Of a stretch of 32,742 nt of DNA, positions 17,970 to 24,899 are shown piece after piece. A model generated the notes under the pieces. It was given only the letters and a program-made list of their open reading frames with translations, searched no databases and was not told the DNA's origin. Each line of letters begins with the position of its first letter. The stretch's first letter is position 1. The DNA comes from Rhodothermales bacterium. Its GTDB lineage: Bacteria > Bacteroidota > Rhodothermia > Rhodothermales > UBA10348. The stretch covers positions 1-32,742 of the forward strand of contig JANJTM010000019.1 of assembly GCA_024711125.1 (NCBI GenBank), read 5' to 3'. Made by a program: the position numbers and the translations under genes.

Positions 17970-20900
17970 TCACCCCTCCACCCGGATGTGCTCCCGTCCG
18001 ACCAGCCGTGCCAGGCCCTGCATGAACTCGGCGTTGGGTTCGATCACGACCGACCGGGCCAGGATGCGCTGCGGAAGGTCGTGGCCCGGGATCGCCAGGT
18101 CGAAATAGAGCTTGGCCGCCCCGCGATTCCGGTCGCAGAGTTCGTGGAGCGCCGTGACCTGGGCTTCCGCGAGGTCCTCCGGATCGAGTTCGAGGACCAC
18201 GGCCCGGATCATCTGCTCGCGGACCTTCCAGACCGGCACGACGTCGTCGGCGATGATCTTGACGCCTCCCCGCATCTCGAGGCCTCCGCGGACGAGGACG
18301 ACCTCGTCCGGCTCCAGGTAGCGCTGCACGCGGTCGTAGACCTGCGAGAAGCAGAGCACCTCGGCCTGCCCGGTGAAATCCTCGATCGTGGCGAATCCCA
18401 TGGGCTTTCCGGCCTTGGACCGCCGGTGCTGCACGTCGGTGACGATGCCGAAGAGCGTGTGCACGGGCCGGTTCGCGCCGTACCCCATCGCGTCCTCGGC
18501 GGGCGTGAACTCCTCGACGAGGCCCTCGGCCTCGGCGATCGAGCACGTGGCGAAGGCGCGCATCTCGGGGAGGTACGCTTCGAGCGGATGGCCGGATACG
18601 TAGAACCCGACGACGTCGCGTTCTTCCTTCAGCACGCGGCCCCGGGGCCACGGCGCGACGGTGGGCATCTGGGGCACCACGGCGCTCGCGCCGTCGCCCG
18701 ACGGGCCTCCGAAGAGCGAGTTCTGGCCGGCCGTGCGGTCGGCGATCACGCGGTTGGCGTACTGGATCGCGGCGTCGAGCGCCTCGAGCATCTGCGCCCG
18801 GTGCCCTTCGATCTCGTCGAGCGCCCCGGCGCGGACCAGCGATTCGAGCGCCTTGCGGTTGACCTGGCGCGGATCGATCGCCACCGAGAGATCGAACAGC
18901 GACGTGAACGCCCCCTTGGTCGCCCGAGCCGCGACGATGCACTCGATGGCCCCGAGCCCGAGCCCCTTGATTGCGCCGAGCCCGAACCGGATGCGCCCGT
19001 TCTCGACCGTGAAGTGGGCCTCGCTGCGGTTGATCGAGGGCGGAAGCACCTCGACGCCGAGGTGCCGCGCCTCCTCGAGCACGACCGCGAGCTTCTTCGT
19101 GTCGCCCATTTCGTTCGTCATCGCGGCCGCGAGGAATTCCGGCCGGTAGTGCGCCTTCAGGTAGGCGGTCTGGTAGGCGACGACGGAGTAGGCCGCACTG
19201 TGGCTGTTGTGCACCACGAGGCCGTCGGCCACGAAGTTGTGCAGGCCGTCGACCGTGAGGTCGTACGTGTCCTCCTCGCCCATGGGCGTGATCGCCACGA
19301 TCCGGTCCCAGAACACGTCGTTCTGCGGTTCTGCGGACGGCTCGAGCGTTCGCGCGTATGCGTCGAGGCGCTCGAGATCCCGGCTCCGGCCCACGATATG
19401 GGGCCCGACCACCTTCAGGAAACGGTCCAGCGTACCGTCGCCGATCAGGTGTACGGTCCAACCCGGTCTGACCGTGCCGCGGTATCGGAACCGCTTTTCC
19501 CCGATACGCGACGGGATGCCGAGCCGCAGCAGCAGGTGCTGGACGTCGCGAGCCAATCCCTCGGAGGACGTGGCGTAGTACGGACGGAATCGATCCCCGC
19601 TGCACAGGTGCCCGTCGCCCGACCAGAGCCGGCCGACGAACAGGGCGATGTCCTCGGACCGCAGGGTGAACACCACGTCGGGGACCCTTTTCGCGTCGGC
19701 CTTGACACCCAGGATTCCGAGCCGCTCCGCCCATCGGAATACGCCAGAACGGACCTCCAGTCGCGTTGCGACCGCCGTGCCCCCCTTGTTCCACGGCGCC
19801 TGGCCCGGCCGGAAGCGGGAATCGCGGCCGGTGTTCAGCACGACTTCCATCCGGCCGTTGGGCCTGGTGTAGATCCGGGCGACGGTTCCGGGGAAGACCC
19901 TCGACGCGTTGACGAAATCGTCAACGAGTTCCCTGTCGTTGTTGTAGAAGTAGAGCGTGGATGGGTGGCAGGTGTTGCCCTCCGAAAGCAGGCCGGCGAG
20001 CACGACCAGTTCGCTTCGGGGCATCGTGGCCGTCGTTGCTGCGCTGAGCCGGCGTGGCGCCGCCAGGCGGTCGCCCACCGCCAGGTCTGCGAGGTTCGTC
20101 CACCCGTCGAACGTTCGGAGCGGGTGGTTGCCGGTCGCCGTGATGCGGTGGCCGAGCGCGGTCCGTACCTCGAATACGGGCTTGCGGCCGTTCCATACCA
20201 CGTCACTCACCGGGCGGGGTCGAAGGGTCAGTTGCTCGTCCAGCGCATGGACCGTGAAGGCTTCCCGTGTACGAAACAGCTCCTCGACCGTACGCCGCGC
20301 GCCCGTTTCGGCATCCGTGACCACGGTCGTGCCCACGACGCACCGGTTGAACCCGTACCCCGCGAACTTCGCCATCATGTCGAACGTCGCGACGGCGGTC
20401 TTCTCGTCGACACCCCGGGCAAGTGCCCCTTCGACGAAGATGGCCTGCTGCTTGTCCATCTCCTCCTTCTTCTTCTTGCCCATCGCGCGGCGAAGGAGGT
20501 CGGCGCTTCCGAGCGAGTACCCCCCCATCACCTGTGCCATCTGCATGACCTGCTCCTGGTAGACGGGCAGGCCGTAGGTGGCCTCGAGCACGGGCTCGAG
20601 CATGGGGTGCGGGTACTCGACCTTTTCGGTCCCGTGCTTGCGCGCGATGTAGTTCGGGATGAGGTCCATCGGCCCGGGCCGATAGAGCGCGTTCATCGCA
20701 ATGAGGTCCTCGAGGCTGGTCGGCTTGAGCTTGCGCAGCCACTCGCGCATGCCCGAGGATTCGAACTGGAAGATCGCGACCGTTTCCGCACGCCGGAAGA
20801 GTTCGAGCGTCGCCGGGTCATCGAGCGGAATCGTATCGAGGTCGACCTCCACGCCGCGGTTTTCCCGGATGAGCCGCAGCGCGTCATCCAGCACCGTGAG

Positions 20901-22595
20901 CGTCTTCAGCCCGAGGAAGTCCATCTTCAGCAGCCCGAAGTCCTCGACCCACTTGCCGTCGTACTGCGTCGTGACGACGTCCTCGTCGGCCGTCTTTCCC
21001 TTGGCGACCGCGACCGGTATGAAGTCGCTGACCCTTCCCGGCGCGATGATGACGCCGGCCGCGTGCACGCCCGTGTGGCGCGCGCTGCCCTCAAGCACCC
21101 GCGCGTAGTGCAGCAGGTTGCGGATCTGCTCGTTGGGGTCCTTGAGCAGTTTCTTGAACTCGGGTACGTCCTCGATCGCCGTATCGAGGCTCACTTTCGG
21201 GCCTTCCGGGATCAGCTTCGCGATGCGGTCGGCTTCGGCGAGCGGAACGCCGAGCACGCGCGCGACGTCCCGGATGACCGACCGCGCGCCCATCGTTCCG
21301 AAGGTGATGATCTGGCAGACGTTCTCGCGCCCGTACTTCTGCACGACGTAGTCGATGACCTTTCCCCGCCCCCGGTCGTCGAAGTCGATGTCGATGTCGG
21401 GCATCGAGATACGCTCGGGGTTCAGGAAGCGCTCGAAGAGCAGGTTGTACCGGATCGGATCGATGTCGGTGATGCCGAGGCAGTAGGCGACGAGGCTGCC
21501 GGCCGCGGATCCGCGGCCCGGACCGACCCGCACGCCGAGGTCTCGAGCGGCCGTCGTGAAGTCCTGGACCACGAGGAAATAGCCGGCGAAGCCCATCGCG
21601 CGGATGACGCCGAGCTCGTAGTTCAGCCGCTCGACGACCTCCTGCGGCATGTCGGGGTACCGGTGTCGCGCGCGCTCGAAGACGAGACCCTGCAGGTATC
21701 CGTCCGCGTCGTCCCGGAAGCTCTCCGGGAGCGGAAAGTGCGGCATGAGCAGCCCGCCCGTCTTCAGGTCGAACGAGCACCGGTCGGCGACGACGATCGT
21801 ATTCGCGAGCGCCTCGCGACGCTGCTCCGGATCGAGGCGGGCGAGCGAATCCTCCATCTCGAAAGACGACTTCAGGTAGAACTGGTCGTTCTCGAAACGC
21901 ATCCGGGACGGGTCGTAGAGGTCCTTGCCCGTCTGCAGGCACAGCAGCACGTCCTGGGCCGCGTGGTCCTCGCGCGCGACGTAGTGCACGTCGTTCGTGG
22001 CGAGGATCGGAACGCCGAACTGCCGGGACCAGCGCAGGAGGACCTCGTTGACCCGGAGCTGGTCCTCGATGCCGTGGTCCTGGATCTCGATGAAGTAGTC
22101 GTCGCCGAAAATGTCGAGCCACTCGCGGAACCGCGCGAGCCCCGCTTCCTCGCCGTGGCGCAGGATCGTCTGCGGAACCTCGCCCTGGAGGCAGCACGTC
22201 GTGGCGACCAGCCCCGCCGAATACGCGCGAAGCGTCTCCTTGTCGATGCGGGGCTTGTAGTAATACCCGTCGGTGTACGACAGGGAGGACAGCCGCATCA
22301 GGTTGCGGTATCCTTCCTCGGACCGGGCGAGCAGCACCTGGTGAAAACGGGTGCGCTCGGTGCGGTCCTGCATGCCGGCGGGCGCGATGTAGAACTCGCA
22401 GCCGATGATGGGGCGAACGCCCGCCTTCTTCGCCTTCGCGTGGAATTCCGGGACGCCGAACAGGTTACCGTGGTCCGTGATCGCGATGGCCGGCTGCCCG
22501 AACTCCGCGGCCCGCTCGACGAGGGTCTGGATCTGTGCGGCCCCGTCGAGCAGCGAGTACTGGGTGTGGCAATGCAGGTGGCAGAAATCGGCCAT
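17970..22595 (-). CDS. dnaE: DNA polymerase III subunit alpha with in-frame intein
   Basis: Replicative polymerase catalytic subunit. The 1541-residue precursor comprises 1162 residues of DnaE, the usual length (E. coli about 1160), plus a 379-residue intein. The N-terminal PHP domain starts with CHLHCHTQYS (His at 6, 8 and 10) and TDHGNLFG. The polymerase core has GPGRGSAAGSLVAYCLGITD, the catalytic Asp pair D400 and D402 in MPDIDIDFDD, and the third Asp D559 in KMDFLGLKTLTVL. The beta-binding region and OB-fold (VHTLFGIVTDVQHRRSKAGK onward) lie after the intein. The intein interrupts GYGFNR/SHSAAY at residues 751/1131 (precursor numbering). A functional polymerase therefore requires protein splicing. 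gluQ follows 46 bases downstream, so dnaE probably heads a dnaE-gluQ-yidD-moaB transcript. Confidence 0.96.
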   Translation of the reverse strand: MADFCHLHCHTQYSLLDGAAQIQTLVERAAEFGQPAIAITDHGNLFGVPEFHAKAKKAGVRPIIGCEFYIAPAGMQDRTERTRFHQVLLARSEEGYRNLMRLSSLSYTDGYYYKPRIDKETLRAYSAGLVATTCCLQGEVPQTILRHGEEAGLARFREWLDIFGDDYFIEIQDHGIEDQLRVNEVLLRWSRQFGVPILATNDVHYVAREDHAAQDVLLCLQTGKDLYDPSRMRFENDQFYLKSSFEMEDSLARLDPEQRREALANTIVVADRCSFDLKTGGLLMPHFPLPESFRDDADGYLQGLVFERARHRYPDMPQEVVERLNYELGVIRAMGFAGYFLVVQDFTTAARDLGVRVGPGRGSAAGSLVAYCLGITDIDPIRYNLLFERFLNPERISMPDIDIDFDDRGRGKVIDYVVQKYGRENVCQIITFGTMGARSVIRDVARVLGVPLAEADRIAKLIPEGPKVSLDTAIEDVPEFKKLLKDPNEQIRNLLHYARVLEGSARHTGVHAAGVIIAPGRVSDFIPVAVAKGKTADEDVVTTQYDGKWVEDFGLLKMDFLGLKTLTVLDDALRLIRENRGVEVDLDTIPLDDPATLELFRRAETVAIFQFESSGMREWLRKLKPTSLEDLIAMNALYRPGPMDLIPNYIARKHGTEKVEYPHPMLEPVLEATYGLPVYQEQVMQMAQVMGGYSLGSADLLRRAMGKKKKEEMDKQQAIFVEGALARGVDEKTAVATFDMMAKFAGYGFNRCVVGTTVVTDAETGARRTVEELFRTREAFTVHALDEQLTLRPRPVSDVVWNGRKPVFEVRTALGHRITATGNHPLRTFDGWTNLADLAVGDRLAAPRRLSAATTATMPRSELVVLAGLLSEGNTCHPSTLYFYNNDRELVDDFVNASRVFPGTVARIYTRPNGRMEVVLNTGRDSRFRPGQAPWNKGGTAVATRLEVRSGVFRWAERLGILGVKADAKRVPDVVFTLRSEDIALFVGRLWSGDGHLCSGDRFRPYYATSSEGLARDVQHLLLRLGIPSRIGEKRFRYRGTVRPGWTVHLIGDGTLDRFLKVVGPHIVGRSRDLERLDAYARTLEPSAEPQNDVFWDRIVAITPMGEEDTYDLTVDGLHNFVADGLVVHNSHSAAYSVVAYQTAYLKAHYRPEFLAAAMTNEMGDTKKLAVVLEEARHLGVEVLPPSINRSEAHFTVENGRIRFGLGAIKGLGLGAIECIVAARATKGAFTSLFDLSVAIDPRQVNRKALESLVRAGALDEIEGHRAQMLEALDAAIQYANRVIADRTAGQNSLFGGPSGDGASAVVPQMPTVAPWPRGRVLKEERDVVGFYVSGHPLEAYLPEMRAFATCSIAEAEGLVEEFTPAEDAMGYGANRPVHTLFGIVTDVQHRRSKAGKPMGFATIEDFTGQAEVLCFSQVYDRVQRYLEPDEVVLVRGGLEMRGGVKIIADDVVPVWKVREQMIRAVVLELDPEDLAEAQVTALHELCDRNRGAAKLYFDLAIPGHDLPQRILARSVVIEPNAEFMQGLARLVGREHIRVEG
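19206..20342 (-). mobile_element. DnaE intein with LAGLIDADG homing endonuclease domain
   Basis: In-frame insertion of 379 residues, from C752 to N1130 of the precursor, between FNR and SHSAAY. Splicing residues look complete: Cys1 (CVVGTTVVTD, block A), block B ITATGNHPL with H824, block F TYDLTVDGLHNFVADG, and block G VVHN with penultimate H1129, terminal N1130 and Ser as the +1 extein residue. A dodecapeptide endonuclease lies between them: LAGLLSEGN at 866-874 (acidic E872) and LFVGRLWSGDG at 985-995 (D994). Both catalytic acids are present, so homing may still be active. The insertion point is four residues downstream of the cyanobacterial split DnaE intein site (Y/CFNKSHS). Confidence 0.95.
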
Positions 22596-23418: not shown

Positions 23419-23592
23419 ATGAGCAAGTACACGGAACTCAAGTCCTTCGTCGACGGCCTCGAAGACGACTTCGGCAAGTTTTTCGACAAGGGCAACAAGG
23501 CTGCCGGTACCCGCGTCCGCAAGGCGATGCAGGACCTGAAGAAGATGGCGCAGGACATCCGCGCCGAGGTCCAGGCCAAGAAGACGGCCTGA
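23419..23592 (+). CDS. Histone H1-like nucleoid protein (Hc1 family)
   Basis: A 57-residue basic protein of the Hc1-type histone-like family common in Bacteroidota. It matches the family over its whole length: ELKSFVDGLEDDFGKFFDKGNKAAGTRVRKAMQDLKKMAQDIRAEVQ can be followed in parts as DDFGKFFDKGNKAAG and TRVRKAMQDLKKMAQDIR. The C-terminus is QAKKTA; it lacks the long Lys/Ala/Pro-rich tail of chlamydial Hc1. The expected role is DNA binding and compaction. The start is fixed by an AGGAGGA site 8 bases upstream. It is a single-gene unit with its own promoter (23310) and a 16-bp terminator hairpin (23615). Confidence 0.92.
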   Translation: MSKYTELKSFVDGLEDDFGKFFDKGNKAAGTRVRKAMQDLKKMAQDIRAEVQAKKTA

Positions 23593-23614: not shown

Positions 23615-23649
23615 CGGAAGGCCGGGCCCGTCGCGGGTCCGGCCTTCCG
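23615..23649 (+). terminator. Terminator hairpin after the hc1-like gene
   Basis: A 16-bp stem (23615-23630 with 23634-23649, one G-T pair) closed by the 3-base loop TCG, 22 bases after the stop. Downstream sequence is TATTCTGG rather than a T-run, so release may be imperfect, but the stem is the strongest in the window. Confidence 0.75.
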
Positions 23650-23731
23650 TATTCTGGGGGTATCCGCTCCGTTACAGCCCCGGGTACGCCCGGACCGCGC
23701 AGCTCCTCCGGGCGCGCGAAGAAGTGCGGAA

Positions 23732-23875
23732 GTGGGATTTCGGCCCATGGTCGATGTATTGGGCCCCGAATGCGGTCGAATAGGTCGACTTTCCGCTGAA
23801 ATACGACGTTTTGCCCCTGGAAAACGGGCCAATACATCGAATTTCGGCCTCTTTTCGACGTTCTGGTCCCCGATA
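23732..23875. repeat. Three degenerate 40-bp repeats at a 52-bp period
   Basis: Units at 23732-23771, 23784-23823 and 23836-23875 align without gaps. By hand count the identities are 24/40 and 27/40 for the third unit with the second and first, and 23/40 for the first with the second. Nineteen columns are identical in all three. The shared plus-strand core is TTTC-N-GC, 7 variable bases, CGA-N-GT, N2, TG, N2, CC, N2, GA. The pattern does not continue one period to either side. Fifty-two is not a multiple of three, so the units are not a translated repeat. Confidence 0.7.
23752..23841. repeat. Long-range inverted repeat within the 52-bp repeat array
   Basis: TCGATGTATTGG (23752-23763) is the exact reverse complement of CCAATACATCGA (23830-23841), a 12-bp perfect match with about four more pairs next to it after bulges (CCC/GGG and G/C). 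It would close a structure enclosing smaller hairpins (GTCGA/TCGAC at about 23777-23791 and GTTTT/AAAAC at about 23809-23826), as in a three-way junction or cruciform. Confidence 0.6.
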
Positions 23876-24035: not shown

Positions 24036-24899
24036 ATGCGTCGTCTGCTGCTTTCGACCTTCCTTCTCCTTGCCGGAATCGGCGTTTCCAGGGCGCAGGA
24101 CGCGCCGCCCGCGTGGACCCGGTCGCTGGCGGGCAAGGTTTCGGCGACCCAGGCGGGCTTCAACAACTGGACGGCCGGCGGCATCAATACGCTGGCCCTC
24201 ACCTCGGGCATCGACGGCAAGGCCGAGAAGACGACCGGCGCGTGGACGCAGTCCTACGACTTCCGGGCCGGTTTCGGGTTCATCAAGCAGGATACCCTCG
24301 ACGTGCGCAAGGCCGAGGACCTCATCCTGTTCAACGGTTCGCTCAAGTACCAGGGACAGGATTTCTTCCGCCTGTTCAACCCGACGTTCGCCCTGTCGGC
24401 GCGTTCGCAGTTCTGGGAGGGCCTGAACTTCGACAAGAACCCGTTCAACGACGGCAGGCGGCCACCCGTCAAGGTGTCGGACGCGCTCTCGCCGGCGACG
24501 TTCACCCAGTCGCTGGGTCTGACGGTCGCGCCGGCCCCGTGGTTCACGCAGCGATTCGGCTTTTCGGCCAAGCAGACGGTGGTGACGATCGAACGCCTCC
24601 GTGCGCTCTACAGCCTGAGGCCCGACCAGTCGGTCAAGGCGGAGCTCGGTCTCGAATCGGTCAGCCAGGTGGATCGCGAGGTGTTCGAGAACGTGCGCTA
24701 CAAGAGCAGTCTCGGCCTGTTCACGGCATTCAACAACGCGGCGAAACCCGACCTGCTCTGGGAGAATTTCGTCACGATGCGGGTCAACAGCTGGCTTACG
24801 ATGAACTTCGAGTGGGCGCTCCTGCTGGACGAGGACCGTTCGAAGAGCCTGCAGGTCAAGGAAGTGTTCTCGGTCGGGTTCGTCTACCAGTTCATCTGA
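24036..24899 (+). CDS. DUF3078 outer-membrane protein
   Basis: A 287-residue protein with an N-terminal signal peptide (MRRLLLSTFLLLAGIGVSRAQ, cleavage after residue 21 or so). The mature chain matches the Bacteroidota DUF3078 family: a KVSATQAGFNNWTAGG opening, then repeated alternating strands rich in Tyr, Phe and Trp such as TQSYDFRAGFGFIKQD, DLILFNGSLKYQG and TMNFEWALLLDE. The C-terminal end VGFVYQFI has a final hydrophobic residue and alternating pattern typical of beta-barrels recognised by BamA. The role is unknown. ATG at 24036 was chosen because the signal peptide begins there; the frame is open further upstream. Three more envelope genes follow with gaps of 6-14 bases. Confidence 0.88.
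   Translation: MRRLLLSTFLLLAGIGVSRAQDAPPAWTRSLAGKVSATQAGFNNWTAGGINTLALTSGIDGKAEKTTGAWTQSYDFRAGFGFIKQDTLDVRKAEDLILFNGSLKYQGQDFFRLFNPTFALSARSQFWEGLNFDKNPFNDGRRPPVKVSDALSPATFTQSLGLTVAPAPWFTQRFGFSAKQTVVTIERLRALYSLRPDQSVKAELGLESVSQVDREVFENVRYKSSLGLFTAFNNAAKPDLLWENFVTMRVNSWLTMNFEWALLLDEDRSKSLQVKEVFSVGFVYQFI

Follow-up and report, generated by a model that had tools for sequence, protein, structure and literature searches.

Introduction

The BOX-type modular repeats of streptococci are made of fixed end modules placed around a repeatable middle module. In phased operator and nucleoid-protein arrays, half-sites repeat at whole helical turns, so that a single protein polymer can run along one side of the helix. 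The BIMEs of Stenotrophomonas are extragenic, dispersed palindromic motifs of alternating orientation, occurring in pairs or in tandem and separated by sequence that is particular to each locus, and the length of their inter-REP segments varies substantially (PMC2817692). In E. coli, the BIMEs bind IHF and gyrase (PMC2817692, PMC6379681). The loops of the CGTC REPs are 4-5 nt long (PMC3733652).

Here we analyse a repeated element present in the window, the whole 32,742-nucleotide stretch of a Rhodothermales genome (hereafter G000) that was studied. The element is a member of a genuine repeat family, palindromic, phased and intergenic, for which we found no description within our partial coverage of the literature.

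A two-unit palindromic element between hc1 and DUF3078

In the window, the gene for a Histone H1-like Hc1 protein (hc1; 23419-23592, + strand; PF07432, E=5e-25) lies upstream of a DUF3078 gene (24036-24899, + strand; PF11276, E=3e-14). A sequence-only reading had reported three 40-bp units in the gap between these genes, spaced by 52 bp and with 19 of 40 columns identical, and we confirmed that count at the same coordinates; moving the units 2 bp upstream gave 20 of 40 shared columns. With spacings of 41-100 bp tried, the 52-bp trio was the top three-unit alignment of the entire 32.7-kb window, and in 1000 dinucleotide-preserving shuffles of the 443-bp gap, covering all those spacings, the mean was 10.9 columns and never more than 15 were obtained. 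The units are real, although their register was misleading, as they cut across the true caps and palindromic units of the element.

The whole element, a two-unit phased palindromic repeat, occupies 23724-23866 (+ strand), as defined by blastn, by a profile match (23723-23866, E=8e-33) and by a sharp 5' boundary of conservation. It starts with a conserved 5' cap, GTGCGGAAGTGGGATTTCGGCC (23724-23745, + strand), at whose boundary the information content of the alignments jumps from the background level seen outside. Two 52-bp units identified with a unit HMM follow, both on the + strand: unit 1 (23751-23802) consists of the half-site TCGATGTATT (23751-23760), a loop, the half-site AATAGGTCGA (23779-23788) and a further loop, and unit 2 (23803-23854) has the same order, with half-sites ACGACGTTTT (23803-23812) and AATACATCGA (23831-23840). 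The dyads at 23779-23812 and 23831-23864 are consistent with this division. The 3' cap, GGCCTCTTTTCGACGTTCTGG (23846-23866, + strand), placed from the alignments, overlaps unit 2 at its last loop. The family consensus is a 5' cap GGTGCGGAAGTGGGATTTCGGCC, two repeats of TCGAYRTWTT-loop-AAWAYRTCGA-loop, and a 3' cap that in other copies ends in TTTTCCACGTTC or CATTTTCCAATCC. A typical copy is thus formed by two tandem 52-bp units between conserved ends, each unit being an imperfect palindrome with inverted half-sites (AAWAYRTCGA / TCGAYRTWTT) and aligned loops of ~14 and ~18 nt. By description, fixed ends and a repeatable middle module recall the streptococcal BOX repeats; unlike BOX, the middle module is here palindromic and phased.

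A terminator-like hairpin of hc1 (23615-23649, + strand), with arms 94% complementary, is located upstream of the element and is separate from it. This hairpin is kept in the gaps of the relatives, where loci L100-L123 show a GC-rich hairpin and then a T-rich stretch downstream of hc1, varied in sequence; hairpin and T-rich stretch are likely a conserved terminator. Among the 24 family relatives with DUF3078, hc1 adjoins that gene in 22; for the remaining two, the stretch is cut at a contig end and hc1 was not found on it. The 22 syntenic gaps (112-402 bp) contained the hc1 terminator, but the element was missing from all of them. The copy in the window is therefore lineage-specific and not part of hc1 regulation, and it is most simply explained as an insertion.

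The element adjoins hc1, and it had been suggested that Hc1 itself might bind the repeats, or that they serve the hc1-DUF3078 pair in particular. Neither proposal was supported by the comparison, since relatives that retain both Hc1 and the synteny lack the element, and ~44 other copies (see below) are found beside unrelated genes. Hc1 is an unlikely ligand, and we regard as very improbable any explanation based on Hc1 sites or on a regulatory device specific to this gene pair.

Elsewhere in the window, a DNA polymerase III alpha-like ORF of 1541 aa (17970-22595, - strand), as judged by eye from its translation, appears to bear an intein, whose borders CVVGTTVV...VVHN/S interrupt GYGFN...SHSAAY; its GLLSEG and GRLWSGDGH motifs resemble a LAGLIDADG endonuclease.

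The element is dispersed between genes in its own genome

The window element is one of ~45 copies of an intergenic DNA element in G000. The search for further copies that had been proposed with the sequence-only reading was positive: blastn with 144 bp returned 20 matches, of which one was the window copy and the best of the others had E=1e-31, and a profile built from 18 copies on sequence alone gave 112 matches at ~45-50 places. Strong copies mostly match on both strands because the whole element is nearly palindromic. According to the unit HMM, nearly all strong copies have exactly two 52-bp units; at least three, some partial, are present at a few loci. At one locus (L047, G000:C31:4117-4205), further degenerate half-units lie downstream of a canonical two-unit element.

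None of the 44 placed copies overlapped a gene predicted by codon usage, so that all 44 are intergenic. The proposal that the repeat acts as DNA, not as protein, is supported. For the 35 copies with both neighbours on the fetched stretch, the flanking genes were convergent in 12, tandem in 18 and divergent in 5, and the 5' cap followed the 3' end of a co-oriented gene in 28 of 42 cases, a mild bias. The neighbours were mostly mutually unrelated; Pfam was run on seven outside the window, including MurB, MazG, isocitrate dehydrogenase and 2-hydroxyacid dehydrogenase, and the rest were inspected only. Five contig ends of G000 (the starts of C78, C71, C23 and C33 and the end of C80) were within ~250 bp of a copy, for a rough expectation of ~1, and the elements may sit in regions that break assembly.

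Half-sites and spacing are constrained

The 33 best copies had a mean identity of 69% and a star-like tree. They are old, and no recently made copy was seen, the maximum pairwise identity being 82%. In these copies, 23 of 142 columns were invariant, compared with 0.05 expected at a uniform rate, and a model with rate heterogeneity was strongly preferred over the uniform one (lnL -3024.5 vs -3167.4). The 89-column core had accumulated 545 substitutions and a single indel, and the short 5' cap 124 substitutions and 11 insertions; the copies behind these spacing figures were detected by similarity, with ~11 weaker ones excluded, using a profile built on nearly ungapped copies that disfavours those bearing indels. 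As similarity detection favours conserved copies, the constraint figures are somewhat overstated, but core and cap are contrasted within the same copies.

Half-sites matched the consensus at 88%, versus 76% for the rest of the core. The dyad AAWAYRTCGA-N14-TCGAYRTWTT, at exact spacing and with at most two mismatches, occurred 48 times, always inside the element places listed by the profile, and a reversed-pattern control gave 0. Of 110 half-sites (alignment A2), 105 had CG, TG or CA as the central dinucleotide and not one had TA; this preference could stem from CpG deamination or from a protein that recognises a YR step by indirect readout. The constraint on both spacing and half-sites supports helical phasing: 51-52 bp corresponds to five turns at 10.2-10.4 bp per turn, a phasing that concerns the 51-52 bp period, as the relative setting of the inverted half-sites depends on the half-site centre chosen. 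The earlier claim about the spacing is borne out by the near-absence of indels in the core and by the fixed half-site spacings of a second genome, described below.

We also considered whether the repeats work as RNA, with hairpins that stabilise or terminate the mRNA at transcript 3' ends. The element folds better than its shuffles (z of -2.6 on one strand and -2.9 on the other), and the 5' cap bias and the 12 of 35 copies between convergent genes would fit this idea. However, there was no covariation: the arms pair no better within a copy than with the arms of other copies, the covariation term of the consensus was only -0.43, and the second hairpin often has C-A mismatches. Moreover, both strands fold equally well, an Rfam search gave nothing at the gathering score, and hairpins in RNA would work without a fixed 51-52 bp period. 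With no compensatory base changes of the kind that marks structured RNAs, the earlier suggestion of a repeated RNA element is unsupported, and a transcribed RNA function seems improbable.

Comparison with REPs, REPINs and MITEs

Like the BIMEs and REP arrays of E. coli (BIME-2) and Stenotrophomonas, the G000 element has palindromic motifs of alternating orientation that are extragenic, dispersed and often tandem. The motifs themselves are different. REPs are palindromes of 20-40 bp, one end of which carries an unpaired GTAG or CGTC tag, a structure that the element does not have: GTAG was present in 1 of 33 copies and CGTC in 6, and the GACG found in 24 is part of the CGACGT half-site, and hence lies within the arm. 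The loops of ~14 and ~18 nt also differ from the 4-5 nt of the CGTC REPs (PMC3733652), spacing is fixed, unlike that of the Stenotrophomonas BIMEs, and compensatory changes are missing. REPs and REPINs go together with a cognate RAYT (Y1 tyrosine transposase) in the same genome, and no Y1/RAYT gene (PF01797) was found in G000 or in G009 and G014, the other two array-bearing genomes; mobilisation by RAYT was thus rejected. Since the layout resembles that of a BIME but the REP features are lacking, we call the element BIME-like and not a BIME.

It could still be a selfish non-autonomous element, MITE- or REPIN-like, whose transposase reads the palindromes, so that the conserved positions would be its recognition sequence and the copies would be decaying. 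As REPINs and MITEs do, the element consists of short palindromic sequences dispersed between genes and is absent from the orthologous site, here in 22 relatives. Whole-element copies with a sharp 5' boundary are scattered exclusively between genes, they share position-specific variants of the half-sites, their distribution is lineage-restricted, and by eye the caps look like inverted repeats, partly complementary to each other. Measured cap complementarity was ~50%, however, and no better within than between copies. Y1, the sole transposase family searched, was encoded by the relatives G018, G007, G006 and G001, where no such arrays were detected. There was no target-site duplication, which MITEs generate, the longest flanking repeat being not above the control, and no near-identical copies were seen. 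Decay should have removed half-sites and added indels, contrary to the state of the core, and the arrays of G009 vary in length and have locus-specific units. A transposon origin may lie behind the dispersal; as an explanation of the element as a whole, we consider a mobile element rather unlikely.

The same geometry with other half-sites in a second genus

The G000 profile also matched G009, which belongs to the same family and a related genus. A model made from the G009 hits identified arrays at ~19 places, many with 3-10 units. Half-sites close to AGGTTNNA / TNNAACCT are common to all of these arrays and the unit sequence is array-specific. Across 13 arrays, all 51 R-to-L spacings were 31 bp and all 54 L-to-R spacings were 20 or 21 bp, counts that omit cases in which the half-site itself failed the search pattern and in which units of one array are non-independent, giving ~12 independent arrays. 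Loops were 41-44% identical between arrays, compared with 25-27% after shuffling and 85-87% within arrays; for the 23-bp loops, the values were 41%, 27% and 85%. Hence the spacing rule of G000 is found in this second genus with other half-site sequences.

Homogenisation within loci and a variable number of units are what functionless minisatellite growth, via replication slippage at a palindrome, would produce. Such growth does not account for nearly every strong G000 copy having exactly two units plus caps, for G009 arrays with dissimilar loops having half-sites and spacing in common, or for invariant columns in old copies, and we think it highly improbable.

In G014, from the genus of G009, we found two arrays whose half-sites resemble AAGTTCAA and whose period is 51-52 bp, so the half-site differs by genome (AAWAYRTCGA, AGGTTNNA and AAGTTCAA). 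GGCC cores and AAAAGCGG loop motifs suggest, at the level of sequence likeness, that the G000 and G009 families share an ancestor. A strict array pattern matched G009 51 times forward and 48 times in reverse, and 113 other genomes of the order gave no match. When 140-200 kb each of G013, G002, G028 and G036 were scanned de novo for tandem repeats of 49-53 bp, none turned up, and 120 kb of G009, as positive control, yielded one array; with no arrays in these four sampled relatives, the arrays are not a general feature of the order. Further afield, a unit pattern that catches only 14 of the 33 own copies, and so would miss diverged families, had no match in 84,980 genomes and IMG/VR, and blastn against plasmids and phages was also negative. 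No neighbour gene family was common to the G000 and G009 copies, and beside the arrays we saw no cognate regulator.

Discussion

We favour, with a probability slightly above one half (about 0.55), the reading that these BIME-like intergenic arrays of phased half-sites are docking sites for a putative lineage-specific, oligomerising DNA-binding protein other than Hc1. The proposal of an array of protein-binding sites thus emerges as the best reading of the repeats, with a predicted ligand. As in operator arrays, conserved inverted half-sites stand at constant spacing and the spacer sequence is tolerant of change. The alternating inverted half-sites are locked at a 51-52 bp period, ~five turns of B-DNA, which would place equivalent half-sites on the same side of the helix, where a sequence-specific oligomerising protein could fill them side by side along one DNA face. 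That the geometry is kept while loops and half-sites change would be expected if such a protein reads inverted half-sites on one helix face. Half-sites repeating at whole helical turns are also the feature that the element shares with phased operator and nucleoid-protein arrays, the ligand being here putative; it differs from them in having the same architecture at dozens of loci without a common neighbour gene.

Occupied arrays might act as nucleoid or supercoiling nodes, by analogy with gyrase or IHF at the E. coli BIMEs, or as boundaries between neighbouring transcription units. Some copying process would have spread the element earlier in the G000 lineage, and the half-site presumably changed between genomes together with its protein. 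A broader view, that dozens of phased arrays form a lineage-specific chromosome-organising system in which the specificity of a putative dedicated protein shifts between genera and the five-turn geometry is kept, is tentative. Interspersed palindromic repeats are usually explained by RAYT-driven transposition, and the array-bearing genomes studied here are without RAYT, have spacing nearly devoid of indels and differ between genera in half-site sequence at an unchanged geometry; they are a natural setting in which to test whether it is the reading of helical phase by a protein that preserves such repeats.
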